In this document: positions 7,535 through 33,029 of the stretch, in pieces | Layout: each line of letters starts with the position of its first letter | Numbering within the stretch: position 1 is the first letter of the stretch | Origin: Komarekiella atlantica HA4396-MV6 | GTDB lineage: Bacteria; Cyanobacteriota; Cyanobacteriia; Cyanobacteriales; Nostocaceae | Direction of reading: 5' to 3' | NCBI GenBank assembly: GCA_019359395.1 | Contig: JAHHHK010000052.1 | Location: 1-33,285, forward strand | Length of the DNA: 33,285 nucleotides | Program-made: the position numbers and the translations under genes | The notes under the pieces: generated by a model | Database searches by the model: none | Told to the model about the DNA's origin: nothing | The model's input: only the letters and a program-made list of their open reading frames with translations

Positions 7535-9151
7535 TCACAACAAACCTCGTTTACCATTGGGGCGCACAGTCATCCAATTCGTTTTTGCTAGTGCCATCTG
7601 CTCATCAGAAATTTTAGCACCAGTCAGATTAGCGCCACACAAATTAGCTCCCCGGAGATTGGCATTGCTCAAATGAGCATGGCTAAGATCTGCACCTCGC
7701 AGATCTGCCCCTTCCAAATCAGCATGGTTGAAGTAAGCTTTGGTCAAATTAGCGTCTTTGAGATTGGAGCGAGTGAGGCTGGCTCTGCCAAAATCACTAT
7801 TGTAGAGATTAGCTCCCTGGAGATTAGTTTTTTGCAATTGAGAAGAGTGAAAATTTGTTCCCGATAAGTCAACACCTTGCAGGTTCAGCAAACTTAAATT
7901 ATGTAGAGCAAAATCCCGTCTCCCCTTCAAATAAGCTGTTAGCAAACTTTGAGTATCTAACTTACGCTCAACTCTAGAATTGAGAATTTGTGAACCATGA
8001 CTGTTACTACTAGCCAAAGTAGTGGATTTAGCCATCACAGGCCCCTGATGCATTCCCCCTGCTTGTGATCCAGCGGCTTCTGCTACTCTAGCTCGTCTAG
8101 CACGAATTGCTGCCGCTACCTGCGCCATACCTGTGTTGGCAGCAGCAGAAGGGTTACTGCACAAAACAGCAGAATTATCCCGGTGATTATGTGTTCGCTC
8201 TTTAACACCAGCATCGGATTTACTGAGCAAACCCTGTGCTAGGCTCTCCAGGTATGGTTCTATTTCTAATGCTCTAAGAACTTCTTCCGCTGACTGGTAG
8301 CGAGTACGTACTGACACCTCTAACATTTTCCTCAGTACATTTATCAAATGGTCGCTCACTTGCACAAGCTGCTCCCACATCATTTCACCCGTTGTAGGAT
8401 TGTATTCCAAATCTTTAGGGGTTTTGCCAGTTAGTAGATAAATGCATGTTACTCCCAGCGCATAGATATCACTGGCATAAACCGGACGCATAGCCATTTG
8501 CTCTGGAGGAGCAAAACCAGGAGTGCCGATCGCATAGGCAGTTAATGCTGTGTGACCTGATGGGCTTGGTACAACTTGACTAACTTGATTTTTTACAGCT
8601 CCAAAGTCAATGAGAACCATTCTGGCATCTTGAGTACGGCGAATCAAATTAGCTGGTTTAATATCACGGTGAATTACTTTGCGTTCATGGATGTATTGCA
8701 GCAATGGCAATGTTTCGCTCAAGAACTGCTTAACTCCAGTTTCGCTTAGGATACCGTTGTGTTTAACTTCCTCCTGGAGGGTGTCACCGCTGATATATTC
8801 TTGAACTAAATAGAATTGTTCCTGTTCTTCAAAATAATCTAGCAGCCTTGGTATTTGGGGATGATTGCCAATCTTGCCTAGAGTTTTAGCTTCTCTTTCA
8901 AAGAGTTCTCGCGCCATCTGCAAAACATGTGGCGTGGTTCCAGAGGGACGTAGCTGCTTAATTACACAACTTGGCTCTCCTGGTAAGGCTTGATCATTGG
9001 CTAAGAAGGTTGCTCCAAAGCCACCCTGACCCAATGGTTTGAATACCCGATAGCGATCGCGCAACAGTAGCCGCGAGCCACAAGACTGACACATCTGGCT
9101 ATATGCCAAATTTTCTGGATTGAGACAGGTAGGATTTAAGCAGTAGCTCAT
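7535..9151 (-). CDS. Ser/Thr protein kinase with N-terminal Cys motif and C-terminal pentapeptide repeats (SpkB-like)
   Basis: 538 residues. A Cys cluster opens the protein (C4, C9, C21, C24: a probable small zinc ribbon or redox motif). The kinase domain covers about 33-300 with all catalytic elements: glycine loop GQGGFG (41-46), Lys65, HRDIKPAN (161-168), DFG (182-184) and APPEQ (about 214-218). A low-complexity linker (about 310-400) leads to a run of pentapeptide repeats, A(D/N)Lxx, at about 412-512, which folds as a right-handed beta helix. This order matches the Synechocystis kinase SpkB as I know it. The C-terminal tail ends in MTVRPNGKRGLL. The FHA gene downstream is a plausible partner. 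Confidence 0.93.
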   Translation of the reverse strand: MSYCLNPTCLNPENLAYSQMCQSCGSRLLLRDRYRVFKPLGQGGFGATFLANDQALPGEPSCVIKQLRPSGTTPHVLQMARELFEREAKTLGKIGNHPQIPRLLDYFEEQEQFYLVQEYISGDTLQEEVKHNGILSETGVKQFLSETLPLLQYIHERKVIHRDIKPANLIRRTQDARMVLIDFGAVKNQVSQVVPSPSGHTALTAYAIGTPGFAPPEQMAMRPVYASDIYALGVTCIYLLTGKTPKDLEYNPTTGEMMWEQLVQVSDHLINVLRKMLEVSVRTRYQSAEEVLRALEIEPYLESLAQGLLSKSDAGVKERTHNHRDNSAVLCSNPSAAANTGMAQVAAAIRARRARVAEAAGSQAGGMHQGPVMAKSTTLASSNSHGSQILNSRVERKLDTQSLLTAYLKGRRDFALHNLSLLNLQGVDLSGTNFHSSQLQKTNLQGANLYNSDFGRASLTRSNLKDANLTKAYFNHADLEGADLRGADLSHAHLSNANLRGANLCGANLTGAKISDEQMALAKTNWMTVRPNGKRGLL

Positions 9152-9849: not shown

Positions 9850-11148
9850 TTACAAGCTAGACATTACATCCTTTGCCACTGCTAAAGTCTGCTCAATATC
9901 TTCTTCAGTGTGAGCCAAAGACGTAAATCCAGCCTCAAACTGAGAAGGTGCTAAGTAAACACCGCCCTCTAACATACCGCGATGGAAGCGTCCGAATTTA
10001 GCGGTATCAGACTTTTTCGCATCTTCATAATTATGAACTGGCCCAGAGGTAAAGAATAACCCGAACATGGCGCTAATTTGACCGCCGCAAGCGGCATGGC
10101 CTGTTTCTTGGGCAATTTTCAGTAAACCGTCAGCTAATTTCTGCGTAATCCGGTCAAGATATTCATAAGTACCAGGCTTTTGCAGCAATTCCAAAGTCTT
10201 AATACCAGCAGTCATCGCTAGGGGATTACCTGAAAGAGTGCCAGCTTGATACATAGGGCCTGCGGGAGCAACCATTGACATGATATCCCGGCGACCGCCA
10301 TACGCTCCGACTGGCAAACCACCACCGATAACCTTACCCAGTGTCGTTAAATCGGGAGTTACACTAAATTTCTCTTGAGCGCCACCGTAAGCAATGCGGA
10401 AGCCTGTCATTACCTCGTCAAACACCAATAAGGCTCCATGCTCGTGGGTAAGCTCTCGTAAGCCTTCTAAAAAGCCAGCATCAGGAGAAATAAAGCCAGC
10501 ATTACCGACGACTGGCTCAAGAATGACACCAGCAATTTCGTCGCGATTTTCTTCAAACAAGGCTTTTACAGCTTCCAGATCATTAAAAGGAGCAGTCAGA
10601 GTGTTGCTAGTTGCCGATTTAGGTACTCCTGGGGAGTCGGGTAAGCCTAGTGTAGCAACACCAGAACCCGCCTTCACCAAAAACGTATCGGCGTGGCCAT
10701 GGTAGCAGCCTTCAAATTTGATAATTTTGTCGCGTTTAGTGAAAGCCCGCATCAGCCGCAAAACTCCCATACAGGCTTCAGTTCCAGAGTTAACAAATCT
10801 TACCATTTCAATGCTGGGAACGGCATCGATGACCATTTCTGCCAAAACGTTTTCCAGTACTGAGGGCGCACCGAAGCTGGTACCTTTTTCCAAGGCTTCA
10901 TGCAGTGCCGCAATCACTTCTGGATGAGCATGACCACAAATTGCCGGCCCCCAAGTGCCCACATAGTCAATATATTGGTTGCCATCTACATCCCAAATAT
11001 ACGCGCCTTTAACGTGATCAAAAACGATGGGTTGTCCGCCTACAGATTTAAAAGCACGCACTGGAGAATTAACTCCTCCTGGCATGAGATTTTGGGCAGC
11101 AGCGAAGATTTCTTGTGATTTGGTTGTTTTTATCGTGGTATTTACCAA
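9850..11148 (-). CDS. hemL: Glutamate-1-semialdehyde 2,1-aminomutase
   Basis: 432 residues, full length for the family. It converts glutamate-1-semialdehyde to 5-aminolevulinate, the committed precursor of haem, chlorophyll and bilins, with pyridoxal phosphate. Visible are [14 protein letters not shown], the [17 protein letters not shown] phosphate-binding stretch, [10 protein letters not shown], the [10 protein letters not shown] Asp that binds the pyridine nitrogen, and the PLP lysine in [10 protein letters not shown] (K272). The start is TTG (11146-11148): it is placed right by the homology ([15 protein letters not shown]) and has a strong AGGAGAG ribosome site, so the rare codon may cap expression. 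It ends against the terminator shared with smtA. Confidence 0.97.
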
Positions 11149-11257
11149 GGTTCTCTCCTAACAGTGGGCAAGAAAAAAAAGCTCTATCTTAGGATAGGGT
11201 TAAAAACTGCTTAGAATTTCTATCGTATAAAATTAGCTGAACTATAAAAATAACAAT

Positions 11258-11446
11258 ATGTTATATAAATCCAATGAAGACTTGCCTTTAGAGATTCGGA
11301 CTCGATTATCTGAGGCATACCAGGATCTTTACCGGGCAGCCTTTAACTCGGCGATCCACTGGTATGGTGAAGCACCAAAAGCTCACCAAGTTGCATTAAG
11401 TGCGATAAAAATGCAATCTGCTATGGAAAAAAATGTTCTTGTTTAA
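11258..11446 (+). CDS. ChaB-like small protein
   Basis: 62 residues. MLYKSNEDLPLEIRTRLSEA followed by YRAAFNSAIHWYG and HQVALSAIKMQSAM matches the ChaB family pattern (YKSNEDLP...RxxLPxxAQxxYRxAFNxAWxxY...A.xxAW.AVK). Family members are small helical proteins; E. coli ChaB is linked to the cation antiporter ChaA, but the biochemical role is not settled. It is transcribed away from hemL and lies 101 bases upstream of hisIE in the same direction. No ion antiporter gene is nearby. Confidence 0.8.
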   Translation: MLYKSNEDLPLEIRTRLSEAYQDLYRAAFNSAIHWYGEAPKAHQVALSAIKMQSAMEKNVLV

Positions 11447-11476
11447 AACTAGCTAATAAAATTCAATTCACAAAAG

Positions 11477-11550
11477 CATATCAGCTGTTGTATTTAGAAT
11501 GGTATCGTGAATCCATGAATCATTCTCATTAGAGTAAGCTAGCTGATATG
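11477..11550 (+). promoter_or_regulatory. Inverted repeat spanning the hisIE leader and start codon
   Basis: CATATCAGCT (11477-11486) and AGCTGATATG (11541-11550) are perfect 10-bp inverted complements, 54 bases apart. The right arm contains the hisIE ATG at 11548. In mRNA the arms could pair and hide the start codon. Confidence 0.35.
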
Positions 11551-12198
11551 TATTCTAACAATCTGTATTCGCTGCGTTCTGCTATCCCTGTTGAGAAAAT
11601 TCGCTACGATGAACAGGGTCTAGTGCCTGCGATTGTCCAAGATTATCTTGATGGCACTGTGCTGATGATGGCATGGATGAATCAGGAGTCGTTACACAAG
11701 ACTTTGGAAACTGGAGAAACTTGGTTTTGGAGTCGTTCCCGTAAGGAATTATGGCACAAGGGAGCGACTTCTGGACATATTCAAAAAGTGCAGAGTATCC
11801 GTTATGACTGTGATAGTGATGCGCTGCTCATTGGGGTGGAACAGATTGGAGATATTGCTTGTCATACTGGTGAACGCAGTTGTTTTCATCAAGTAAACGG
11901 GAAAATTGCTTTACCGCCAAGCGATACATTATCGCAATTGTTTCAGACAATCTGCGATCGCCGTGACAATCCTACTGAAAGTTCTTACACATGCAAGTTA
12001 TTGGCTGGCGGTGATAACAAGATTTTGAAAAAGATCGGTGAGGAAACTGCTGAGGTCGTGATGGCTTTTAAGGATGATGAGGCTGATGCGATCGCAGGTG
12101 AAGTAGCTGACTTACTATATCATACTTTAGTTGCTTTAGCTTACCATCAAGTGGATTTGAAATCTGTTTATCGCAAGTTACAAGAGCGTCGGAATTAG
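11548..12198 (+). CDS. hisIE: Bifunctional phosphoribosyl-AMP cyclohydrolase / phosphoribosyl-ATP pyrophosphatase
   Basis: 216 residues: the second and third steps of histidine biosynthesis in one chain. The N-terminal HisI half (about 15-115) shows [40 protein letters not shown] and the metal site [20 protein letters not shown] with the later RSCFHQ. The C-terminal HisE half (about 125-212) shows TYTCKLL-like [34 protein letters not shown] and [20 protein letters not shown] with its acidic Mg-binding residues. No other his genes are adjacent, as is usual in cyanobacteria. Confidence 0.97.
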
Positions 12199-17714: not shown

Positions 17715-18419
17715 TTAGAAGAACAGATGACTATCAGGTTGAATATTGATTTCCATTGGCACAGCTTGCGGTTCCGCAGAAAGGGCAAAGAAAATAGCAT
17801 TGGCAGCAGTTTCAGGACTAAGCATTTTTTTTCGATCTACCTTTAAATTCACGTTGTCCCAGAAAGGAGAATCTACCCCACCAAAGTAGAATAGCGTGAA
17901 CTTGATACCAAAACGCTTAAGTTCCTCTGCCATGCACTTGCTGAAACCGACGACGCCAAACTTGGAAGCAGAATAAGCCGCAGCCGTCGCCATCGAATGT
18001 TTGCCCAGAATTCCGATCACGTTACAAATATGACCAGACTTGCGCTTTTGCATTTCTTCAGCAGCCGCTTGAGTAGTGTAGAAGCTACCCTTTAAGTTGA
18101 CATCTAGCATCTTGTCTAAATCAGCTGGTTCCAGGTTGTTGTAGGGCTTGAGGATACCAGCACCCGCTGCATTCACCAAAACGTCGATTTGACCAAACTC
18201 AGCAATAGTCTTTTTTATTAAAGTGTCTACCTGTTGCGGATCAGTAATGTCGCAAGGAATGGTCAAAATTGACCCAGATAAATCATCTGCCAGTGTTGTT
18301 AAACAAACCGCATCTCTCGCCGTCAGTACCAACTGTGCCCCCGTGGGGGCAAGTTTGCGAGTTAAAGCTGAACCAATGCCGCCACTAGCACCGACAACGA
18401 CAATGACTTTATCTTGCAT
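17715..18419 (-). CDS. Short-chain dehydrogenase/reductase
   Basis: 234 residues, a classical SDR. Cofactor motif is GASGGIG (residues about 10-16), NAAG lies near 85-88, a conserved Asn is in VNLKGSF, and the catalytic Ser region (NVIGILGKHSM) is unusual: the usual Ser before Tyr is not obvious, with I/G where S is expected. The Tyr-Lys pair is in YSASKFG. It uses NAD(P)H on an unknown substrate. First gene in the minus-strand run SDR-HPPD-HAD; the gap to HPPD is 106 bases. Confidence 0.88.
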   Translation of the reverse strand: MQDKVIVVVGASGGIGSALTRKLAPTGAQLVLTARDAVCLTTLADDLSGSILTIPCDITDPQQVDTLIKKTIAEFGQIDVLVNAAGAGILKPYNNLEPADLDKMLDVNLKGSFYTTQAAAEEMQKRKSGHICNVIGILGKHSMATAAAYSASKFGVVGFSKCMAEELKRFGIKFTLFYFGGVDSPFWDNVNLKVDRKKMLSPETAANAIFFALSAEPQAVPMEINIQPDSHLFF

Positions 18420-18901: not shown

Positions 18902-19165
18902 ATGTCAATTCAAAAAAAAATAGTAATTCATCAGCCAGAAATAGGTCAATTTATCTATGAAATTCGGCTTTTAATGGGATTGACGCAAGAAGAGTTAGCT
19001 ATAATTATTGGTGTTACTTTTCCAACCGTTAATCGTTGGGAAAATGGACATACTAAACCTTCTAAATTGGCTGTACAGCAGATTGAATCTTTAGTGGGCA
19101 AGCTTGGTGAAAAAGGTCAAAAAATACTGGCTCAGTATAACCAAAAGATTTCAGACTTTGCTTAA
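18902..19165 (+). CDS. XRE-family helix-turn-helix regulator
   Basis: 87 residues. The HTH is clear: IYEIRLLMGLTQEELAIIIG followed by FPTVNRWENGHTKPSKLAVQ, a Cro/C1-type helix-turn-helix of about 55 residues. The short C-terminal helix EKGQKILAQYNQ may dimerise. No ribosome site is obvious before the ATG. It is the first gene of the plus-strand group that leads to the vWA and tubulin-like genes and may regulate them or itself. In other cyanobacteria such short XRE proteins also accompany restriction or helicase genes. Confidence 0.85.
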   Translation: MSIQKKIVIHQPEIGQFIYEIRLLMGLTQEELAIIIGVTFPTVNRWENGHTKPSKLAVQQIESLVGKLGEKGQKILAQYNQKISDFA

Positions 19166-19301
19166 TGTATTGATTCAAAAGCTAGGAGTTTAAAATTGTA
19201 TATCGCATTTACAATTCTACCGAATTAATTAAATTCTAATGTCGGTTTATACATGTCAATATTAGCTGGAATTAGCAATTTTTTATTAAGTAATAATTAA
19301 T

Positions 19302-19484
19302 ATGATATTAGGTTGCGAAATCATTACTGTAGAGTTCTTGCTTTTAACTCGAATGCAAAGAGAAGTAAAGGTATGGAATAGCAATGAATGGGTAGGCGGT
19401 ACACGCATTACATCTCAACTTCTAAATTACTGGTTTGAGGAAGACCAAGTTAGAAATAATATGCCAGGAGAAATTTATCAATGA
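19302..19484 (+). CDS. Small ORF, possible vestige of a DEAD/DEAH-helicase N-terminus
   Basis: 60 residues, stop overlapping the vWA start by four bases (ATGA), which would allow translational coupling. The stretch VKVWNSNEWVGGTRITSQLL followed by NYWFEEDQV reminds me of the region just before the Q motif in large DEAD/DEAH helicases of restriction-type defence systems, where a similar TR.T..LLNYWF block precedes FAQREA. The first residues (MILGCEIITVEFLLL) do not fit that pattern. It may be a remnant of such a gene or a small protein of its own. The vWA ribosome site lies inside it. Confidence 0.35.
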   Translation: MILGCEIITVEFLLLTRMQREVKVWNSNEWVGGTRITSQLLNYWFEEDQVRNNMPGEIYQ

Positions 19485-21313
19485 GTTTTAAATATTTCAA
19501 GCATTGGTTGAGATACTCTTCGATCCAAAGCATTGTTATTTTGGCTCTAATGTCGATTTTTCACCTGTCAACTGTATTAGCTCAGACTACCACGAAAGGG
19601 GGAATTGACTGGATTTTGGTAGTAGATACTTCTGCTTCAATGCGTGGTGTAGGCGGAACAAAAAATATCTTCGCTCAAGTCAAGAATTCGATTACCGAAT
19701 TTGTTAACACAGCCAGATTAAACGATACAGTTACTATCTATACTTTTGACAAAGATGTAACTCTAAATGCTACAAACTTTGCCATTAATAATAATCTAGA
19801 CCGAGGTAAACTCAAGCAAATAATTAGCTCACTACAGGCTGAGGGTATACGTACTCATACAGGCAAAGCAGTGCAAAAAGCGCTGCAACATTCTGCCCTT
19901 TTAAACCACCGTACTGATGCTCTTGGTCGCACTGTCAGCATAGTGTTTTTGACAGACGGAGTACAAGATGTGCGTGGTATTCCTAATCCTGTTCCTATCC
20001 CTAGTAATACCGAATTTTTACGCCAGCAACAATGCAAACCCTATATATTTTTTGTATCTCTAGGGCTAAAAGAACACGAAAAGCAGCTGAATGATTTTGC
20101 TAGTAATCCAGCACTTTGCGGGAAAGGACAGGTATTGCGAGATCCTGGAGGAGTTCAGCTAAATCAACTGGCTCAAAATATCCGACCAGTGCTGATTCAA
20201 CCCAAGCTTGATGTCACTTTACCCACCGCCAATTTGCAGCCGGTATTGCCCGGAACAATCAGTAAACCACTTAATATTAATAGCATCAGCAATGTCAATG
20301 CTAAGGTAAGTTTGCAACTCGAAGACCCTAGCCAAAATGGTATTCGCTTAATTCCACCTGATCGCACCATTGATTTAATTGCGAATAAAACAACAGTCAT
20401 TCCCGTGCGTTTGCAGATCCCAGCAGAAGCAAAGGGAGGTACTAGTAGCTTGCGCTTGGTGTTGACAATCGCAAATAAAGCGATCGCACCAATTACAGTT
20501 GACTGGCCTTTAACTATTAAGTCGAAACTACAAGTGCAACCTACAAAGATAGATTTTAGTTCTGTAGAAGTAGGCAAAACAACTAAAACCCAAACTTTAG
20601 TAATCAAGAGCAATATATCTGGAACGGCTAAATTGCAGTTGCAAGGCAATTCCAAAGACATTTCTGTGGTTGAACCTTCAGCAGCTATATCTTTGCAACC
20701 AGGAGAAACTAAAATTCCTGTGCAGTTACAGGTTGCTGATAGCAGTTTTGCAGGCGATCGCACTTTCACCTTAGTCCTGACCCCAGATAACCCGATTGCT
20801 AGCCCTATTAGTGCAGAAGTTCATCTACATATTTTGATGCCACTGTGGCGAAAAATAATTATTTGGTCGCTCTTGGTACTGCTGATATTGTTAATTGCCT
20901 TAATGGTAATCTGTTTGATTCAACGTAAAACCCCCTTGGAATTAATCGAAGATTTCCGCAATCGTAACCACTTAGAAGGAGCGCTGGTAGTGTTGGAACC
21001 ACTGCCACAATTGTCGGAAGACCAAGAGATTAGTTTGACTCATCAGCGTCAGAGTAAACTGTATTTGAGTAATTTGATACCAGCAATTGCTGCCACAAAT
21101 TCTGATGCCGAGTTAGTCACAGTTTGGCGAGCAGGCAAAAAAAATATAGATTTACACTGTTTGAAAGGTGTAATTTTTGTCAATACTAAAAAAATAAATA
21201 CAGATGAACTCTACGACGAGGACATCATTGAGATTGGCAACGTTAAGCTGCTATTTAACTGGATTGAACACCAAAGACCCTCTGAGACAAGCAGTGGGCA
21301 AACAAACTCTTGA
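19481..21313 (+). CDS. Membrane-anchored vWA protein with FHA-like cytoplasmic tail
   Basis: 610 residues. A signal peptide (residues 1-35, ending STVLA-Q) leads to a von Willebrand A domain at about 42-245 with a full MIDAS: DTSAS (49-53), Thr in IRTHTGKAVQ, Asp in VFLTDGVQD. Residues about 245-445 are beta-rich and repeat the pattern PGTISKPLNI / VEVGKTTKTQTLVIKS / LQPGETKIPVQL, so two Ig-like sandwich domains are likely. A transmembrane helix (about 458-482, IIIWSLLVLLILLIALMVIC) puts the rest in the cytoplasm. The tail ends with CLKGVIFVNTKKINTDELYD and IIEIGNVKLLFNW, the second half of an FHA-like fold, but without the usual SRxH residues. SD AGGAG precedes the ATG. The tubulin-like gene follows after 20 bases. 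Confidence 0.85.
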   Translation: MSFKYFKHWLRYSSIQSIVILALMSIFHLSTVLAQTTTKGGIDWILVVDTSASMRGVGGTKNIFAQVKNSITEFVNTARLNDTVTIYTFDKDVTLNATNFAINNNLDRGKLKQIISSLQAEGIRTHTGKAVQKALQHSALLNHRTDALGRTVSIVFLTDGVQDVRGIPNPVPIPSNTEFLRQQQCKPYIFFVSLGLKEHEKQLNDFASNPALCGKGQVLRDPGGVQLNQLAQNIRPVLIQPKLDVTLPTANLQPVLPGTISKPLNINSISNVNAKVSLQLEDPSQNGIRLIPPDRTIDLIANKTTVIPVRLQIPAEAKGGTSSLRLVLTIANKAIAPITVDWPLTIKSKLQVQPTKIDFSSVEVGKTTKTQTLVIKSNISGTAKLQLQGNSKDISVVEPSAAISLQPGETKIPVQLQVADSSFAGDRTFTLVLTPDNPIASPISAEVHLHILMPLWRKIIIWSLLVLLILLIALMVICLIQRKTPLELIEDFRNRNHLEGALVVLEPLPQLSEDQEISLTHQRQSKLYLSNLIPAIAATNSDAELVTVWRAGKKNIDLHCLKGVIFVNTKKINTDELYDEDIIEIGNVKLLFNWIEHQRPSETSSGQTNS

Positions 21314-21333
21314 ACAATATCACAGGAAAGTGA

Positions 21334-24084
21334 ATGTTAAGTCCCACGGTTGTGCGTCCCACGGTTGTTTTTCGTCCTACCGTTGTCATCGGATTAGGAG
21401 GAACGGGTTATGAAGTTGTACTCAAGCTTAAAAAGCGATTTATAGATGTTTACGGCTCAGTACCAGAAATTATTCGTTTTATTTCTATTGATACTACCGA
21501 AAACATCCAAGAACGAGAAAAATCACCTGATGGTACCAAAGTTGTTTTAGAACCTAACGAACTTTATGCTATATCCGTAGCAAATCCATTACCCTATACA
21601 CGTAACGACCATATCGCTGAATGGTGGCCTAAAGACATTTCAGCATCCAGCCTGATCAGTGGTGCGGGACAGATTCGGGCGCGGGGACGACTCGCCTTAT
21701 TTGCTAGAGTCGGTGATATTAAAGGTTTAATTGCTCAAGCAATCAATGCTGTACGCGAAATTCGCACTAGCAAACAAACATTTTCAGTAAACATTGAAGT
21801 TTCCAATCGTGATGGTGTTGAAGTTTTTATTGTTGGCAGTTTGGCTGGTGGGACGGGCAGTGGCACGTTCTTGGATGTGGCATTTTTAACACGAGAATAT
21901 CTCAATAATTTTTCTAATATTACGGGGGTATTTATTTTACCCAGAGTGTTTGCCAATATTCCCCAAACTCACTTGGTGAAGTCTAATGCTTATGGCGCTC
22001 TCAAAGAAATAGAACACTTTTGGGGATTGTCACCATCTAATAGCATTGAAATTGATTATGGTACTTCCAAGGTTAGAGCCGATCGCCCTCCCTTTGATGC
22101 TGTATTTTTAATTGACGGCGTGAATAAAAAGGGAACTGTAATTAGCCGTCCAGACGATTTACAAAATTTAGTTGCAGATGGGTTGTACATCCAGATTGGT
22201 TCTCAAATCGGTCTAGATGCTGCTAACGTTGCTGATAACATTCGCGCTTATTTAGCAACTGGTGAAAAAGTTCGCGGACGGAATATAAATTATTGTAGTT
22301 TTGGCTTTGCCACACTGACTTTACCTGTACAAGAATACGAGCGGATGAAACTTGAGGATGCTCAAAACTTGCTGAAAAATGAGTTGATGGCATCTACCCC
22401 AACAATCGATTTAGAAAACGAAATCGCGCGTTTTTTACAGGATTGCAAGTTAGCAGATGCTACTACTGTCCTCAATGCTTTGACTGAAAGCAATCAGGGC
22501 GCACAAATGAAATCCGAATTCCGAATTGGCGAAATGCGTTTTGATCGTACAGCTTTGCCGACGATCAAAGAACTCTACAAGCGGCAGTTGGATCAATTTG
22601 AGCAACGGACGGCTCAAGAATTGGGATTGAGTTTTTATCGCTTAGAGCAGACTTCAACTGCTGCGATCGCAACTTGTTGGGAGCGGAGTCTTAACCGTCC
22701 CAATGGACTAGCTTATGCACTCCAATTTTTTACCAAACTTTCTGAAAAACTAGATGAATTGCAGCAGAGCGTACAACGTAAGTCACAAGAGGCGCAATCC
22801 AGTTTCCATGCTTTAAAATTAGAAGCCCAAGAAGAAAAAATTAAAGAAGCCGCAGAAACTTGGTTCTCAAATAAGAACACTATTCAAGCCGCTTGCCAGA
22901 AGTACAAAGAACGGGCTGACCAAAAGTGGAAGATTTATTTACATTGGAAGCGGTGTGATAAAGCAGCTGAACTCTATGGTGTACTCCGGGCTAGGTTGGA
23001 AGAAATCCAAGAAAAGTGCCAACGTCTGCACAGCAACCTAGATAAAGTTTACCGAGATTTAGAACAGAGTTATAACGAGGTCAGCCGTCAAGGAAATAAC
23101 GACAATCCTTTTATTCATACTATTCAACGTGCCAATCTGCAATCGAAACGACCTAAAGTTACTGGCGAAGACTTTATCCGTTGGTATCGAGAACAGTCTC
23201 AAACATTGACTAATTGGCCTGAGAAAAAAGCTGAAGATGTCAAGGCTGATATCTTGGAATTTTTAAATGAGATTTACCGCCCTCTGACGAGTATGAGTGT
23301 TGAGCAGGTTTTGGCAGATAGCAATCCAGAAGATGCGGGACAAGATTTGCAACAACTTGGCAAACTCGCAGTTCCTCTCTGGCAGTATGAAGAATCGGAA
23401 ATACCAGCTCAACAGCAGCACGTAATTACAGAGTTTTATTACTACGGGGTTGAGAGTAGCAACACAGTTTTTAGCAATCCACCTCTTTCAAGTCGGATGC
23501 CTACAGGAAAAAATAGTCCTTCTTTCGTACCGACAGGCGAACCCCACAAAGTCACCCTGTTTCGAGTGGAAGTGGGTGTACCCTTATTTGCCTTCAACGG
23601 AATGAGGGATATGGAGCTAGCTTACTTAGATCCAAATAAAGTCTTCAAGCACTTAGACCGCAATTGGACAAACTTACCCAATTTAATTCCACCAGAAGAT
23701 GATGGTGGGGCGTTGCGTTGGTTTGCCTTAGCATTAGTACCCGAACCGTATAAATTGATTGTCAATCAGAGTAAAAAATATTTTGTTCATACAGAGCAAG
23801 CGCGAAGATTAGAAGGTCAAGTTTTGCCTTTGGGAGGCGATCGCAAGTCGGCATTTAGAGCTTTTAAAAGTAACTTGCGTCTAGTTAAAGAAATTGCTGA
23901 AAAAGTTGAAAGTATTACCCATCAAGACAAAGACAAAGCCAAATTGACTCTGGAGAGTTACATCAACCAACTCAATCAGCATTTAAGCAAAGAAGGCAAA
24001 GTTGATTCCCAGATTAAAGAACAGGTGGAAATGGAAATCCAGGAAATTGAAGCATATTTAGAAGATTTGGATGTGATTATCTAG
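21334..24084 (+). CDS. Tubulin/FtsZ-like GTPase family protein
   Basis: 916 residues. The N-terminal half has the tubulin/FtsZ-type layout: PTVVIGLGGTGYE (glycine-rich first loop, residues about 14-25) and SLAGGTGSGTFLD with the GGTGSGT signature (about 171-177), followed by ILPRVFANIP and KSNAYGALKEIEHF. A later conserved block is KVRGRNINYCSFGFATL (about 313-329). This fits the bacterial tubulin-like family (Tubulin_2 type), predicted to bind GTP and possibly polymerise. Residues about 440-620 are highly helical and charged, probably coiled coil; the C-terminus is helical. No membrane segment. The N-terminus carries PTVV three times. SD AGGAAAG; it lies 20 bases after the vWA gene and 30 before the next, so one operon. 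Confidence 0.87.
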   Translation: MLSPTVVRPTVVFRPTVVIGLGGTGYEVVLKLKKRFIDVYGSVPEIIRFISIDTTENIQEREKSPDGTKVVLEPNELYAISVANPLPYTRNDHIAEWWPKDISASSLISGAGQIRARGRLALFARVGDIKGLIAQAINAVREIRTSKQTFSVNIEVSNRDGVEVFIVGSLAGGTGSGTFLDVAFLTREYLNNFSNITGVFILPRVFANIPQTHLVKSNAYGALKEIEHFWGLSPSNSIEIDYGTSKVRADRPPFDAVFLIDGVNKKGTVISRPDDLQNLVADGLYIQIGSQIGLDAANVADNIRAYLATGEKVRGRNINYCSFGFATLTLPVQEYERMKLEDAQNLLKNELMASTPTIDLENEIARFLQDCKLADATTVLNALTESNQGAQMKSEFRIGEMRFDRTALPTIKELYKRQLDQFEQRTAQELGLSFYRLEQTSTAAIATCWERSLNRPNGLAYALQFFTKLSEKLDELQQSVQRKSQEAQSSFHALKLEAQEEKIKEAAETWFSNKNTIQAACQKYKERADQKWKIYLHWKRCDKAAELYGVLRARLEEIQEKCQRLHSNLDKVYRDLEQSYNEVSRQGNNDNPFIHTIQRANLQSKRPKVTGEDFIRWYREQSQTLTNWPEKKAEDVKADILEFLNEIYRPLTSMSVEQVLADSNPEDAGQDLQQLGKLAVPLWQYEESEIPAQQQHVITEFYYYGVESSNTVFSNPPLSSRMPTGKNSPSFVPTGEPHKVTLFRVEVGVPLFAFNGMRDMELAYLDPNKVFKHLDRNWTNLPNLIPPEDDGGALRWFALALVPEPYKLIVNQSKKYFVHTEQARRLEGQVLPLGGDRKSAFRAFKSNLRLVKEIAEKVESITHQDKDKAKLTLESYINQLNQHLSKEGKVDSQIKEQVEMEIQEIEAYLEDLDVII

Positions 24085-24114
24085 CCCCGTAGTCTACGTT
24101 TTCAGAATGTTTTT

Positions 24115-27100
24115 ATGCCAAAACCAACTATTTTACTTGCACTCGATCCTCATAGTGCTGCTTTTTGTGCAGCCATTAAACAGCAACTACCAGAATTTCC
24201 AACCGCCCAAAGCTGTTTAATTCAAACTTATACCTTAACTTGGGACGGTCAAATTTTTGGCTTTAGTACTGAGTTAGATCAGTTTGCTGATCCGAGTTTT
24301 GATCTGGCGCAAACTCACGGTAAACAAGCTTATGTCTCCAAAATCCGTACCCAGTTCAGCAAAGCGACTAGCCAGATGCAGACTGCACTAATAGATTTAT
24401 TGAAAACGGCTAATCAATCTCCAGAAGCAATATCTGCTAAACGCCAAGGGGTAGAAATCAGCAGCACGCATCGAATATATCTCATGCTGTCAGCCAGCAA
24501 CTACTTTGCGAAGGGAGTAGTTTTCGACATAGTACGCTTGATTCGTTGGCTATTTTCTAAGTACTTTACAGATGTTCCTTACAGCTTAGAAGCTTTATTG
24601 CTACTACCAGGGTTATTTACCCAAGCCACAACTGCTGATTACGGTGCTGCTTACGCGCTTTTGAAAGAGTTAGATTACAAAATGACCAGTGGAGTTGCGA
24701 TCGCTGCTAGTCAAAAAATGCCACTTTTTGATAACTGCTGGCTGATGGACGAGCGAATTGGGGGACTGAAAGATAATTTGCCCAGTTATGCCGATGCTTT
24801 TGCAGGCTTTCTCACCGTGGAACCGGAAACCAGCGGCTTGTTGATTGGCACACAAAAAGTCCGGGGAAAAATTCCCGCCTACAGCGCTTTTGGCTACGCA
24901 GAACTGTTTTTTCCGGGAGAAACAACTATTAACCGATTGAGTGCTGCCTTAGCTGCCGATATCGTGATGGAGCAGTTTTTACCGAAGGCAGAATTCACTC
25001 CAGAGGCAATTCGCAAATGCCTGTTAGATGCCAAAGAATTTGTCCTCAGCGAAGATTTCAGTAATGCTTTTCTCCAATTAGAACGAGATAACGGCAAACC
25101 AGTTTGGCAAGATTTTAATCCGCGTCTTGAGATGGGTGCTGGTATGTCTCAGGAATATGGGATGGAATTGCAGCGTGCTTATCGGCAATTTGAAAATAAA
25201 GAGCTACTTTCCTATAAACGCACGCTGGAAAATTGTTGTAAACAATTACAGGCAACACTAACCACTTTCTTAGATCGCAGCATTAACCGCTATGCTGATG
25301 CTACACCTAGAGGCTTACATGAAGGGGTTAGGCTATTAAATATATTGACGTTTTTTTATTTGGAACTGCAAACGGATTCTGTTGGCGATCAATCCCAGAA
25401 TCTTGTTACAGAACTGCGTGCGGCTGAAGCATTTCTCGACTCTAGATTGCAGGTAACAATTGATAAAGAAACCACTCAAAAGCTGCTCAACCAAATTTTG
25501 TCCTTAAAATTGCGGCAGCAAGAATTACAAGATGCTTTAGCTGAAAGAAAGTCTGAAGAACAACTGCAAGAGTTACAAACAACTCAAAAACAGTTAGAAA
25601 TGGCGATCGCTGATTATCGCCAAGCGTTAAATGCAGAAATCGAACAAGCTCAAAAAATCCGTTTTATGGCGATCGCTCGCGCTCGTGAACAAGCAGAAGC
25701 AGCGATCGCCGTAGCTCAAAATCACCTAACTGCCATTGAAAGTCAACTTGAAACAGCCACAGTTCAACTAAGTGAACTGCTAGGAGAAGAAAACAAATTT
25801 CGCTCTCAGTATTTGATTATTTATCCTATTTTTCTATTTGCTATTTTATTAGGATTTTTAATTTTAATCGGAATTTTTAATCAATCAATATTATGGATAT
25901 TATTACAAAACTTTTGGGCTAACTTAGTTAGTTATCTGCTTTGGAATACGGTAACAATTCTCACTTATTTAGGAATCGTTTGGCTCAAGTACAGCACTAA
26001 CATTCGCGGTCGAATTGAAAAGGTTCAAAAACAAATTAAACGACTAGAAAGTACTGTTAAAGCAACTGTTGTAGAATTACGTCGTAGCTATAATGAAAAA
26101 TCAAAATTAGAATATGATTTATACGCCCAAAACCTTCGCATCGAGGCGTTAAATTATTTGATTAAAACAGCTAAACAAAGGGCTGAAACTTTACGTCAAT
26201 CTCTTGCCAACTTGTCTGAGATATACAATGATTTAGTTATTCAACGGGATCAAGCTACAAGGAATTTTTCCGAAATTCGACTCACAGTTCTGACTGATGC
26301 AGATATTGATGCTTATTACCAAAGTTTTCTGACAACACTCCCAACTGAGACATTCACTCAAGAACGAGTTAGCCGCTCTCAATCGTGGAAAATTCCTGCT
26401 GAAGTATTTAAGAACCAACTTATCCCCTTTGCTCGCCAGCAGTTCGAGCGATTGAGCAATTTGTCTATTGCGGAAGTATTAAAACAATCAGATTTAATTG
26501 CAGCAAACACTGTCAATTTGCGTTTAAATCAACTTTATGATAATGCTAACTTGTTGCTGCGACTTCAGGATATTGACACTAACTTAAACCCAACTTCTCA
26601 ACGGGAAATTACCCTTTGGGTGGGAGCAAAAGATAAAGAGCAAATTTTTGCGCTTTACAGTCGCTTTAGTCGCACTTTAACCGCCTTGATAGCTGAAGAT
26701 GAGCAGAGGTTATGTATTTTGACCCGTTCGTTGGGCTTTCCGGCTTATTTTCTCAGTCAAATTGAGTTTTATCGAGACTGCTATGAGCGGACTCAAAGTG
26801 AACAAATCGACGAAGACGAAAATATTCCAGATTTAATACCAGAGGAAATTGGCTCTGGTAGAGAATTAAAACTAGCTTATCAAACCCTGCTGTTAGCGAT
26901 CGCTCTTGGGTTGGTATCCCAAAATTCTCAAGGAGATTATCACTTCAACGGTCAGCCACTTGGTACAGACCGAGAACAAATTACCTTGGCTCTGGTAACT
27001 GAGTTTACCTTTGATGAACTATATGGACAGCTAAAGGAAAGCGTAGAAGCGATTGAACATGATTTAATTTACTTGAACTTACATAAATTAGAAACATCTG

Positions 27101-27171
27101 CAAAAAATTTAACTCGTTACGAACGTAAGCTTTTAGATCATCTACTCTCAGACTATAACCCTCTGAATTAG
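24115..27171 (+). CDS. Coiled-coil membrane protein with a degenerate tubulin-like N-terminal domain
   Basis: 1018 residues. No family name recognised, but residues 1-290 align by eye with the preceding tubulin-like protein: PTILLALDPHSAAF against PTVVIGLGGTGYEV; YLMLSASNYFAKGVVFDIVR against the GGTGSGT region; LEALLLLPGLF and YGAAYALLKELDY against GVFILPRVF and YGALKEIEHF; KVRGKIPAYSAFGYAELFFP against KVRGRNINYCSFGFATLTLP. The glycine loops are lost, so nucleotide binding is unlikely. Residues about 440-560 and 640-715 are strong coiled coils around two transmembrane helices (about 566-588 and 605-630), so both ends should face the cytoplasm. The last 300 residues are helical. Last gene of the vWA/tubulin-like operon. 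Confidence 0.8.
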   Translation: MPKPTILLALDPHSAAFCAAIKQQLPEFPTAQSCLIQTYTLTWDGQIFGFSTELDQFADPSFDLAQTHGKQAYVSKIRTQFSKATSQMQTALIDLLKTANQSPEAISAKRQGVEISSTHRIYLMLSASNYFAKGVVFDIVRLIRWLFSKYFTDVPYSLEALLLLPGLFTQATTADYGAAYALLKELDYKMTSGVAIAASQKMPLFDNCWLMDERIGGLKDNLPSYADAFAGFLTVEPETSGLLIGTQKVRGKIPAYSAFGYAELFFPGETTINRLSAALAADIVMEQFLPKAEFTPEAIRKCLLDAKEFVLSEDFSNAFLQLERDNGKPVWQDFNPRLEMGAGMSQEYGMELQRAYRQFENKELLSYKRTLENCCKQLQATLTTFLDRSINRYADATPRGLHEGVRLLNILTFFYLELQTDSVGDQSQNLVTELRAAEAFLDSRLQVTIDKETTQKLLNQILSLKLRQQELQDALAERKSEEQLQELQTTQKQLEMAIADYRQALNAEIEQAQKIRFMAIARAREQAEAAIAVAQNHLTAIESQLETATVQLSELLGEENKFRSQYLIIYPIFLFAILLGFLILIGIFNQSILWILLQNFWANLVSYLLWNTVTILTYLGIVWLKYSTNIRGRIEKVQKQIKRLESTVKATVVELRRSYNEKSKLEYDLYAQNLRIEALNYLIKTAKQRAETLRQSLANLSEIYNDLVIQRDQATRNFSEIRLTVLTDADIDAYYQSFLTTLPTETFTQERVSRSQSWKIPAEVFKNQLIPFARQQFERLSNLSIAEVLKQSDLIAANTVNLRLNQLYDNANLLLRLQDIDTNLNPTSQREITLWVGAKDKEQIFALYSRFSRTLTALIAEDEQRLCILTRSLGFPAYFLSQIEFYRDCYERTQSEQIDEDENIPDLIPEEIGSGRELKLAYQTLLLAIALGLVSQNSQGDYHFNGQPLGTDREQITLALVTEFTFDELYGQLKESVEAIEHDLIYLNLHKLETSAKNLTRYERKLLDHLLSDYNPLN

Positions 27172-27297: not shown

Positions 27298-28845
27298 TCA
27301 AGAAAGCTTTGTGAGAAATCCTAAGAATCGTTTGGTTTTTGAGGTGAGGAGTGTGCGACGATAAGCATCTGCCGCTTTCTTAATAGCTTCAGCTTGAGTG
27401 GGATAAGGATGAATCACGCTACTGAGTTTGCTCAAACCTAGTTTACCAACAATTGCCGTAGTTACTTCTGAGATCATCTCACCTGCATGACTGGCGACAA
27501 TGGTTGCACCGATAATTTCATCAGACCCTTTTTTGTGGTGAATTTTGAGAAATCCTAACTCTTCACCGTCGGCGATCGCTCGGTCTACACTATTAAAAGG
27601 AATTGCGATCGTCGCTATATTAATACCCAACTTCTGCGCCTCGTGTTCATACATTCCCACATGGGCAATTTCGGGGTCGGTATAAGTTACCCACGGCATC
27701 ACTAGACTACTGAGTTTGGAGCGCCCCAAACCAAAGGGAGAAAATAGCGTATTTTTAATCACAATTCGCGCCGCCGCATCAGCAGCATGGGTAAACTTCC
27801 AATTCATGCAGATATCGCCAGCTGCATAAATCTTGGGATTTGTAGTTTGGAGATAATCATTTACCTTTACACCCTGGCGCTTATCGTATTCCACCCCCAC
27901 TGCTTCTAAATTTAGACCTTCTACATTCGGCGCACGTCCCGCACCTACTAAAATTTCATCTACTGTGACAGAATCTCGGCGACCATTAGAAGAAAAGTAA
28001 AGTCTTTTACCCTCGGTGACAGTTACCACTTCTTCTAACTGGCAATTCAGCACCACGCGAATTCCTTCGTGAATCAAGACCTTTTGGAGAATTTCAGCGG
28101 CGTCAGCATCTTCCTTATTTAAAAGGTGAGAACCACGATGGAAGAATACCACCTCACAACCCAAACGCCGGAAAGCTTGCGCCAATTCGCAACCAATCGG
28201 CCCACCACCAATCACCGCCAAACGTTCCGGTCGTTGAATCAGGGAAAAAACCGTCTCATTGGTCAGATAACCCGCCTTTTCAATTCCTGGTATCGAGAGT
28301 TGGGCGGCTCTGGCTCCAGTCGCAATTACAGCTTTTTTAAATCGGAGGGTTTTGTTGCCAACTTCCACGGTATTTTTACTTGCAAACCGACCGCTACCCA
28401 AGAAGACATCAACTCCTAGTTTCTGAAAGCGCTCAGCCGAATCATGATGGCTAATCCCAGACCTTACTCGCCGCATCCGTGCCATGACTGCGGGAAAATC
28501 AACATCAACATGTTGGGGAATGTTAACTCCAAACTCCTTGGCATTCCAGATTTCGCCAACTACGCGAGAGGAGCGGATAACAGTTTTAGATGGTACACAA
28601 CCAACATTCAAGCAATCTCCACCCATGAGATGCTTTTCAATCAAAGCTACTTTTAAACCCAAATCTAAGCCGGCTGCACCCGCCGCCACCACTAATCCCG
28701 CTGTACCAGCGCCAATTACTACCAAGTCATAAATATCAGCAGGTTCAGGATTAACCCAATTTGGGGGATGGACGTAGGACACTAACGTCTGGTTATACTC
28801 ATCCATTGGGCGAACTGTGACTCTCTCAAATTCTGAATTTGACAT
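27298..28845 (-). CDS. MerA-like FAD-dependent pyridine nucleotide-disulfide oxidoreductase
   Basis: 515 residues. A FAD-binding GxGxxG is in LVVIGAGTAGLVVA; the redox pair is C78/C83 in GGDCLNVGCVPSKT; an NAD(P)H fold is at AVIGGGPIGCELAQAF; the second FAD contact is IYAAGDI; the dimer-interface active site HPYPTQAEA supplies the catalytic His. It resembles mercuric reductase but lacks the N-terminal metal-binding domain and the C-terminal Cys pair of true MerA, so mercury reduction is doubtful. An extra 35-residue N-terminus (VRPMDEYNQTLVSYVHPPNW) matches cyanobacterial homologues. It follows two TVP38/TMEM64 genes on the same strand, a partnership I know from other cyanobacteria. SD GAGG is present. 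Confidence 0.92.
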   Translation of the reverse strand: MSNSEFERVTVRPMDEYNQTLVSYVHPPNWVNPEPADIYDLVVIGAGTAGLVVAAGAAGLDLGLKVALIEKHLMGGDCLNVGCVPSKTVIRSSRVVGEIWNAKEFGVNIPQHVDVDFPAVMARMRRVRSGISHHDSAERFQKLGVDVFLGSGRFASKNTVEVGNKTLRFKKAVIATGARAAQLSIPGIEKAGYLTNETVFSLIQRPERLAVIGGGPIGCELAQAFRRLGCEVVFFHRGSHLLNKEDADAAEILQKVLIHEGIRVVLNCQLEEVVTVTEGKRLYFSSNGRRDSVTVDEILVGAGRAPNVEGLNLEAVGVEYDKRQGVKVNDYLQTTNPKIYAAGDICMNWKFTHAADAAARIVIKNTLFSPFGLGRSKLSSLVMPWVTYTDPEIAHVGMYEHEAQKLGINIATIAIPFNSVDRAIADGEELGFLKIHHKKGSDEIIGATIVASHAGEMISEVTTAIVGKLGLSKLSSVIHPYPTQAEAIKKAADAYRRTLLTSKTKRFLGFLTKLS

Positions 28846-32283: not shown

Positions 32284-32700
32284 ATGCCAGCAAAAGATGT
32301 ATATCATGATGCAGTTAAAAATGCCTTAATTAAGGATGGTTGGATAATTACAGCTGATCCTTATCCGATTAAATATGAAGAAGTTAAACTGTTTGCTGAT
32401 CTCGCTGGTGAAAAAACCATTGCTGCGAGTAGAGAAGGAAAACAAATTGTTATTGAAATTAAAAGTTTTCTCAGCCGTTCTCCTATGCGTGATTTTGAAA
32501 CTGCATTAGGTCAGTATCTCATTTATAAAGCTCTACTTTCTCTTGAATATCCTGAACAGGAATTATATTTGGCAATAGGTGAAATAATTTATGAAGATTT
32601 CTTTCAAAAAGTGGCAATTCAATTAATTTTAGCAAAATATCAAATCTCACTATTAGTTTTTGATATGAATAAACAGGAGATTCTGAAATGGATAAGTTAA
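32284..32700 (+). CDS. xisH: XisH family protein (PD-(D/E)xK nuclease-like)
   Basis: 138 residues, full length. Named for the fdxN-element excision controlling factor XisH of Anabaena. The sequence MPAKDVYHDAVKNALIKDGW, then LFADLAG, IVIEIKSFLSRSPMRDFETA and LGQYLIYKALL gives a D...ExK pattern (Asp in FADL, E-x-K in IEIKS) with a following Gln, which is the PD-(D/E)xK nuclease active-site layout. In Anabaena XisH and XisI are needed with the recombinase XisF for excision during heterocyst development; no xisF is in this window, so this is an orphan pair. SD AGGGAG; it overlaps xisI by 13 bases. Confidence 0.93.
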   Translation: MPAKDVYHDAVKNALIKDGWIITADPYPIKYEEVKLFADLAGEKTIAASREGKQIVIEIKSFLSRSPMRDFETALGQYLIYKALLSLEYPEQELYLAIGEIIYEDFFQKVAIQLILAKYQISLLVFDMNKQEILKWIS

Positions 32701-33029
32701 CTCAATATCAAAATTTGATCAAGAAAGTTTTAACAGAGTATCAAAGAATATCGTCACAAGTTACTGTTTGTGACGTGGACGAAGTATTAATGTTTGATGA
32801 TAATAGAAGTCAATATCTTTGGTTCAATATTGGTTGGAAACAAGGGAAGAGAATTAAAGGAATTTCTGTTTATATTCGTATTAAAAATGAAAAAATTTAT
32901 ATCGAAGAAGATTTGACTGAGGAAGGAATGGCAACTGAGTTAATGCATTTAGGTGTTCTTGCTAGTGATATTGTCTTGGCTTTTCAGCCTCCAGAAGTGA
33001 GGAAATATACTGAGTTTGCAACAGTTTAA
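32688..33029 (+). CDS. xisI: XisI family protein
   Basis: 113 residues, full length. MDKLTQYQNLIKKVLTEYQR, VLMFDDNRSQYLWFNIGWKQ, VYIRIKNEKIYIEEDLTEEG and LGVLASDIVLAFQPPEVRKY are the family hallmarks of XisI (fdxN-element excision controlling factor). A ribosome site AGGAGA lies within the end of xisH and the start overlaps it by 13 bases, so the two are translated together and probably work as a complex. The last codons and the stop fall within the first copy of a perfect 76-bp tandem duplication, so the gene end is repeated just downstream. Confidence 0.93.
   Translation: MDKLTQYQNLIKKVLTEYQRISSQVTVCDVDEVLMFDDNRSQYLWFNIGWKQGKRIKGISVYIRIKNEKIYIEEDLTEEGMATELMHLGVLASDIVLAFQPPEVRKYTEFATV

Follow-up and report, generated by a model that had tools for sequence, protein, structure and literature searches.

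The closest described relatives of the genes reported here belong to operons of the FtsZl1 family, which was defined by Makarova and Koonin and includes cyanobacterial members (Makarova & Koonin, 2010; PMC2875224). According to the available part of that paper, the majority of FtsZl1 operons hold genes for proteins with a von Willebrand factor A (vWA) domain, and a role in membrane remodelling was proposed as a prediction. A reviewer objected that an FtsZ-like protein in the cytosol could not enter a complex with proteins of the periplasm. Tubulin genes accompanied by outside-facing vWA proteins in GAP1-N2 loci have been read as conflict systems, and in Firmicutes these tubulin genes come in pairs and carry coiled coils (Kaur, 2020; PMC7159879, accessible portion). 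Tubulin_2 proteins are described as a divergent group with a history of its own (PMC9871819, in part), and the accessible portion of PMC10067837 deals with a subject other than tubulins of the FtsZl1 kind. Here, we analyze a stretch of 33,285 nucleotides from Komarekiella atlantica HA4396-MV6 (assembly GCA_019359395.1, contig JAHHHK010000052.1), referred to as the window, which is one complete contig of a 7.8 Mb genome. It encodes a vWA protein, a tubulin-like GTPase, and a third protein that we read as a GTP-dead pseudo-tubulin with a membrane anchor, and these three genes are called the trio. As far as our searches and the available parts of the literature go, the operon family is known, and what is new is the third, obligate component, a GTP-dead sister with a predicted membrane anchor; it may already be among the supplementary families of PMC2875224.

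The trio consists of plus-strand open reading frames of 610, 916, and 1018 amino acids (aa). The gaps are 20 bases from the vWA gene to the GTPase gene and 30 bases from there to the third gene, as described in an initial annotation made from the sequence of the window. The features of the trio, including the metal-ion-dependent adhesion site (MIDAS) of the vWA domain, are as follows.

19481..21313, plus strand: vWA protein, 610 aa (open reading frame, Pfam VWA_2, conserved linkage)
19625..19639, plus strand: MIDAS motif D-T-S-A-S, residues 49–53 (motif in the translation and in aligned copies)
20855..20911, plus strand: predicted membrane helix of the vWA protein, residues 459–477 (hydropathy 3.37)
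20933..21280, plus strand: FHA-like, predicted cytosolic tail, about residues 485–600 (hhalign to FHA domains of the same genome)
21334..24084, plus strand: FtsZl1-type tubulin-like GTPase, 916 aa (Pfam Tubulin_2, AlphaFold2 model, Foldseek)
21391..21408, plus strand: T1-like loop GLGGTG, residues 20–25 (motif count and FtsZ alignment)
21844..21864, plus strand: T4 GTP loop AGGTGSG, residues 171–177 (motif count)
24115..27171, plus strand: putative pseudo-tubulin, 1018 aa, predicted to be membrane-anchored (hhalign, motif loss, Foldseek)
25813..25980, plus strand: predicted membrane hairpin within the coiled coil, about residues 567–622 (hydrophobic windows)
27154..27168, plus strand: conserved C-terminal peptide Y-N/S-P-L-N (present in 27 of 27 copies)

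The 916-aa protein matches Tubulin_2 (PF13809) in Pfam with an E value of 9.7e-65, and none of its hydropathy windows exceeds 1.24. Both results agree with the soluble, tubulin- or FtsZ-like GTPase that the initial annotation had proposed, where a GGTGSGT loop was also noted. The sequence carries GLGGTG at residue 20 and AGGTGSGT at residue 171. Both GTP loops (T1 and T4) were present in all 25 GTPase copies with a complete frame, after 3 of 28 loci with incomplete frames had been dropped. In an alignment with cyanobacterial FtsZ (E 0.0044; 0.097 for the reversed control), the two glycine loops fall on T1 and T4. An AlphaFold2 model based on a 22-sequence alignment reached a mean predicted local distance difference test score (pLDDT) of 78.0. 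When it was compared with the PDB by Foldseek, all 19 hits at E <=0.001 came from CetZ, FtsZ, or tubulin-containing entries (best E 1.1e-5). The 916-aa protein is thus predicted to have a tubulin fold, the absence of which had been named in advance as grounds for discarding the proposal. In the model, long helices at residues 407–586 form the coiled coil, and a mixed alpha/beta domain follows at 594–914. PDB sequence searches with the GTPase retrieved no tubulin, one of them giving mostly coiled-coil look-alikes. The host genome encodes one ordinary FtsZ and yielded no second Tubulin_2 match. Separately, open frames of ~500 aa with weak Tubulin_2 hits (about 19–35 bits) occur in many cyanobacteria (genomes G041, G158, G186, G240, G088, G221, G264, G266, G192, G123, G025, G103, G053, and G019) and possibly represent a further divergent tubulin-like family.

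For the third protein, a single-sequence Pfam search gave Tubulin_2 at E 0.0034, under the curated cut-off, and NCBIfam returned weak SMC coiled-coil hits alone. Profile–profile comparison with hhalign extended the kinship far beyond this level: 15 third-protein copies matched 22 FtsZl1 sequences with E 1.9e-25 over 654 columns. Compared by halves with the trio-type GTPases, the N-terminal half scored 4.7e-6 and the C-terminal half 6.7e-8, with reversed profiles at 0.16–0.51. Both parts also matched the common cyanobacterial FtsZl1 proteins from outside the trio lineage (2.4e-12 and 7e-9, respectively). We conclude from these alignments that the GTPase and the third protein are paralogues over their full length. 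Neither T1 nor T4 was found in any of the 27 full-length copies; ALDPHS occupies the position of GLGGTG, and the counterpart of AGGTGSGT is gone from the alignment. Two hydrophobic windows, at residues 567 (2.98) and 604 (1.59), support the double-pass coiled-coil protein postulated earlier. Windows of at least 1.6 occur twice in 26 of the 27 third proteins, the exception being the copy in the window with its 1.59. The hairpin (about residues 567–622) appears as an insertion within the coiled coil when the third protein is aligned with FtsZl1, and all 27 proteins end in Y-N/S-P-L-N. We read the third protein as a GTP-dead pseudo-tubulin with a predicted membrane anchor, in keeping with the pseudo-tubulin of the initial annotation. 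The invariant E236 was considered as a retained T7 catalytic acid and rejected, as the alignments gave no consistent counterpart of GTPase residues 290–303.

The vWA protein was described at the outset as exported and then anchored, with its main domain outside and a short domain inside, and hydropathy supports this as a predicted topology. Pfam places VWA_2 at residues 45–160 (E 2.3e-14), with the MIDAS residues DTSAS starting at 49. The motif is kept in 10 of 11 aligned copies, the eleventh being cut before it. Hydropathy exceeds 1.6 in two windows, at residues 15 and 459, and the resulting order is signal peptide, vWA domain, Ig-like region (hits sub-threshold), one membrane helix, and a small cytosolic domain, with about 130 residues following the helix. 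By the positive-inside rule, the side of a membrane helix that is rich in lysine and arginine is cytosolic. Because the stretch QRKTPLELIEDFRNR after the helix is K- and R-rich, the vWA domain is predicted to lie outside. The tail had been called FHA-like, and this held in part. Compared by hhalign with 14 FHA domains of the same genome, it matched over 33 columns with E 1.7e-6 (reversed control 0.29), the match being confined to the last third of the FHA fold. The phosphothreonine-binding half of an FHA domain is marked by GR and SxxH and is followed by C-terminal strands. This half is visible in the 14 domains compared and found no match in the tail, and the Pfam FHA model gave no match either. 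The tail is accordingly FHA-like, though it probably does not read phosphothreonine. A PDB sequence search with the vWA alignment returned nothing useful and no tubulin.

To determine how firmly the three genes are linked, we scanned 217 genomes of the family, with thresholds of E <=1e-60 for the GTPase and <=1e-40 for the vWA protein and with at least 900 profile positions for a full-length GTPase match. The GTPase was found in 30 genomes, the third gene or pieces of it in 41, and the vWA gene or pieces in 32. All 26 full-length GTPase matches, spread over 13 genera in a uniform gene order, follow immediately on a vWA match, with 19–65 bases between the two; one of the 26 has internal stops (G460), and three of these vWA matches are partial, at least one of them at a contig end. 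Directly downstream, at 14–230 bases, all 26 have a third-gene match, 25 full and one broken. Conversely, all 27 full-length third genes adjoin a GTPase match. Among named records, the third gene occurs in Nostoc, Goleter, and a Nostocales metagenome-assembled genome. Only pieces of the third gene were found in 14 genomes, some perhaps through contig breaks (G465 may be such a case), and one of the 14, G466, retains a full-length GTPase. The tally left out 8 more third-gene pieces and 2 more vWA pieces, all in genomes already counted. One scanned genome, G490, has 38% contamination and lies close to G489. Loci L033–L043 overlap in species with the scanned genomes, so that the two sets are not independent, and the counts given here are based on the 217 genomes. 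Third-gene pieces only were also observed in L041–L043, L075, and L076 (G164, G414 loci), L041 being perhaps cut by a contig end.

Beyond the family, the trio is rare. The third gene occurs in 9 of 386 genomes of the phylum, two of these copies being relics and one broken; a first search with a single sequence had found it in 1 of 60 genomes of the order, the host's own. Any Tubulin_2 protein was detected in 61 of 292 cyanobacterial genomes, 57 above the curated cut-off, and the five GTPases of the trio type in this set (about 915–935 aa, 200–222 bits) are all accompanied by the third gene. A single genome outside the family, G313 from another family of the same class, holds the trio in the same order, with identities of 35, 42, and 27%. 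Its third gene stops beside what appears by eye to be a transposase fragment near a contig edge, and the remainder lies on another contig. The initial annotation had suggested testing co-occurrence across cyanobacteria, with its absence outside close relatives as a refutation: one order was indeed kept in the 13 genera and in this additional genome, so that this refutation did not come about, and the 9 of 386 genomes speak against a general occurrence. The linkage counts and the narrow spread therefore indicate that the trio is a patchy module, carried by some Nostoc-type cyanobacteria, whose parts are retained and lost together.

Mean ratios of nonsynonymous to synonymous substitution between the window and seven near loci were 0.19 for the vWA gene, 0.15 for the GTPase gene, and 0.22 for the third gene, indicating purifying selection on all three. 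The divergences of the GTPase and the third protein are shared (Mantel r 0.910; 24 genomes, G460 and G466 having been dropped from the 26; none of 2000 permutations as high). Because the test had no unlinked control gene, this correlation shows shared descent and not contact.

We then compared the trio with the published systems. The 916-aa protein has what defines FtsZl1 in the available part of PMC2875224: an FtsZ-like N-terminal domain with a GTP loop of the GGGTG(S/T)G type, a coiled coil, a C-terminal domain, and a vWA gene in the operon, with membrane-linked partners. The third protein lacks the GTP loop in all 27 copies and is a homologue rather than a GTPase. In contrast to the operons described there, the trio adds this GTP-dead, membrane-anchored paralogue and has no kinase, P-loop GTPase, or OmpA gene; its C-terminal domain is modelled as mixed alpha/beta, whereas that of FtsZl1 is given as mostly helical. 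In the tree, the trio GTPases branch separately from the FtsZl1 proteins common in cyanobacteria. From the GAP1-N2/DO-GTPase systems (PMC7159879, in part), the trio shares the Firmicutes pattern of two tubulin and coiled-coil genes with an extracellular vWA protein, the facing of the trio's own vWA protein being a hydropathy prediction. The accessible text does not state whether the second Firmicutes tubulin is live. GAP1-M (PF20014) was absent from the host genome, with Corynebacterium glutamicum positive as a control. Among 20 window proteins scanned with Pfam, to which the search for these families was limited, no DO-GTPase and no FNIII protein was found. No MoxR AAA+ ATPase, as in the MoxR–vWA ternary systems, was present among these 20 proteins, the nearest neighbours of the trio included. 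CetZ, FtsZ, and TubZ resemble the tubulin proteins of the trio in predicted fold and differ from them in lacking the long coiled coil and the extra C-terminal domain. Sets of this kind have been described before, vWA and FtsZl1 operons (PMC2875224) and tubulin and vWA loci (PMC7159879) being on record in the parts of these papers available; no tested function was found in them. No paper whose title names an experiment on such a trio was found in the open full-text literature, most subscription journals being beyond reach.

Relatives outside the cyanobacteria were found mainly in Thermales. Among 72,556 plasmid records, 14 matched the GTPase. Thermales megaplasmids gave the three best matches, of which only that of Meiothermus (27% identity over 95%) covers at least 80%. 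Three intact Thermales loci show the order vWA–tubulin–hypothetical, the same as in the trio; in a fourth (L059), a transposase gene precedes a truncated tubulin gene. The Nostoc and Thermales vWA proteins share their architecture and can be aligned along most of the sequence (E 4.1e-13). In an N-domain tree of 22 rows, the cyanobacterial trio and Thermales GTPases form one clade (95/93). The Thermales third protein differs: with 677–689 aa (L056–L059), it is shorter and has no hairpin, and its conserved NPL end resembles that of the Nostoc protein by eye. Its hhalign comparison with the Nostoc third protein was not significant (E 0.65, 0.22, 0.71), and E values against Nostoc-type FtsZl1 were 0.047 and 0.1. 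In local mode, 8 and 6 of 100 column shuffles did as well for the N parts; for the C parts, the numbers were 14 and 21. In global mode, one C-part score exceeded those of all 100 shuffles, but it spans 40 columns at domain edges, and we do not trust it. Against the Thermales GTPase, the Thermales third protein scored E 0.0023 and its C part 2.2e-4, with 3 of 100 shuffles as good in another framing. The Nostoc-type third protein had no match among the viral contigs or the plasmids searched. Two further loci were noted. In L052, from a distant genome within the phylum of the host, a 588-aa protein (10384–12150, minus strand) has a signal-like start, a DASGSM MIDAS-like motif recognized by eye, and a late hydrophobic helix; Pfam calls no vWA domain in it, and an FtsZl1 gene and a 931-aa protein follow. 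On an Azospirillum plasmid (L093), an FtsZl1 gene lies near OmpA-family and caspase-family genes.

Taken together, we propose, with about an even chance of being right, that the three proteins form one membrane-bound machine: a tubulin-like scaffold, switched by GTP, that its dead paralogue docks to the membrane and that is coupled to a vWA sensor in the periplasm. The vWA protein would be exported and anchored by its single helix, with the MIDAS domain in the periplasm and the small FHA-like domain on the cytosolic side. The 916-aa protein, as a tubulin relative whose GTP loops are intact, would switch or assemble with GTP. Its duplicated 1018-aa sister would have lost the family's mode of GTP binding, and its coiled coil would put the hairpin into the membrane; because it keeps the family body and the C-terminal domain, it may act on the live subunit as a template, a cap, or a docking site at the membrane. 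Whatever the vWA domain senses, be it a ligand or an envelope change, might then bias GTP-controlled assembly at the membrane. We infer the contacts between the proteins, GTP binding, polymerisation, the direction of signalling, and the purpose of the trio; the proposed mechanism uses every part of it. While the observations of the initial annotation are confirmed, its interpretation, in which an outside-facing vWA domain passes a signal or anchor point to a cytoplasmic tubulin filament tethered by the third protein, is partly supported.

Several points weigh against this proposal. The topology of the trio is predicted from hydropathy only. The model of the third protein is weak, with a mean pLDDT of 53.4 and values of 50–86, in blocks of ten, for residues 1–236. 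In Foldseek, ranks 1–15 were TubZ or tubulin entries with a probability of up to 0.99, and the E values were 0.039 at best. The third-protein profile alone did not detect FtsZ (E 0.19; reversed 0.22). The N-domain tree of the live copies carries a long-branch warning. Finally, elements T6–H7, which aid FtsZ filaments, were unidentifiable in FtsZl1, and the available part of PMC2875224 keeps the option of a non-polymerising protein.

A rival reading, to which we accord somewhat under an even chance, is immunity, with the trio as a conflict system: either the vWA protein or the GTPase would detect an invader, and assembly of the tubulin pair would stop the infection or kill the cell. Kaur (2020; PMC7159879, accessible portion) treats tubulin and vWA loci in this way. 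In all four Thermales megaplasmid records, brxL follows the tubulin and hypothetical genes, in L058 after an insertion sequence. Proteins upstream of the Meiothermus locus (L056) match HmaB and HmaC (E 0), helicase and DNA-methylase genes are annotated downstream of L058 and L059, and L059 has type I-C cas genes upstream. The patchy presence and decay of the trio, with the 14 piece-only genomes, and the XRE regulator beside it point the same way. On the other hand, no PADLOC model matches the three proteins of the window or the three of Meiothermus, and PADLOC found none among 10 flanking genes chosen from the many at cyanobacterial trio loci. The host genome lacks GAP1-M and BrxL_ATPase, the BrxL/Hma neighbours having been seen only beside the Thermales loci, and the homology between the Thermales and Nostoc third proteins is not significant. 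Independently of the trio, the vWA–tubulin–hypothetical–brxL blocks of L056, L057, L058, and L059 are a candidate defence module in their own right. We consider only slightly less likely the reading of the trio as a housekeeping cytoskeleton that remodels the membrane or organizes the envelope, as in the FtsZl1 proposal of 2010. Predicted membrane anchors on two of the three proteins, the predicted tubulin fold of the 916-aa protein, and the resemblance of the scanned cyanobacterial flanking genes to ordinary chromosomal genes favour it; the presence in just 9 of 386 sampled genomes, with decay in several, means that no general process needs the trio. These two readings differ in purpose and not in anatomy, and the evidence does not separate them. 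That the third protein resembles tubulin by chance and is a coiled-coil membrane protein of unrelated origin is highly improbable. The sub-threshold Pfam score, the SMC hits, and the missed FtsZ profile might suggest it, but two separate FtsZl1 alignments match the protein in each half, reversed controls accompanying the first, and its structure search is headed by TubZ and tubulin.

An extension of the docked-scaffold proposal would make the trio a transmembrane tubulin receptor, in which a dead, membrane-inserted sister, a live sister, and a periplasmic vWA protein form an assembly gated from outside. The third protein would then be, to our knowledge, the only prokaryotic tubulin relative to have become a GTP-dead, membrane-inserted partner with obligate ties to a live sister and a vWA sensor. 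Combined with the BrxL/Hma context in Thermales, it would be an envelope-sensing arm of immunity, an idea that we regard as speculative and on balance unlikely.

In the window, the trio is preceded by a further gene, so that four plus-strand genes stand in a row: the XRE regulator, the vWA protein, the Tubulin_2 protein, and the 1018-aa protein.

18902..19165, plus strand: XRE-type helix-turn-helix gene, 87 aa (Pfam HTH_3, E 2.8e-12)

Position 18902, given in the initial annotation as the start of the operon, belongs to this gene, and the vWA gene starts at 19481. The block is bordered by a short-chain dehydrogenase (17715–18419) and a flavin disulphide reductase (27298–28845), both on the minus strand. 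The 87-aa protein is a probable regulator, repressor-like in character. Upstream of other trios, its gene is intact in L073 (76% identity over 80 residues) and broken in L034 and L044, and no copy was found at the remaining trio loci searched; it is likely an old neighbour of the trio. A 60-aa open reading frame (19302–19484) has a stop that overlaps the vWA start codon. Peptides 38–45% identical to it occur at the same position in L040, L044, and L045, and the frame is interrupted in most other loci; it may be a leader peptide or a conserved untranslated region. Promoter and terminator scans did no better than shuffles (20 vs. 22.2 and 6 vs. 6.9, respectively). In ten loci (L033–L035, L037, L038, L040, and L042–L045), a homologous protein of ~973 aa, with a triple GAF in L033, lies upstream of the trio or its remnant, which points to a shared site; it is absent from the window. 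Elsewhere in the window, an FHA protein (6315–7046) and a protein kinase with pentapeptide repeats (7535–9151) lie on the minus strand beside recA (5144–6217), and an xisH–xisI pair is located at the edge (32284–33029).

With a cytosolic domain on the vWA protein and a dead sister planted in the membrane, the trio would offer a concrete route by which the periplasmic and cytosolic partners may meet, the point of the reviewer's objection of 2010 (PMC2875224, available part). It is a minimal three-gene set for testing the coupling between cytosol and periplasm in FtsZl1 systems. It would also extend the tubulin superfamily by a pseudo-enzyme in which the GTP loops are gone and a membrane anchor has been acquired.

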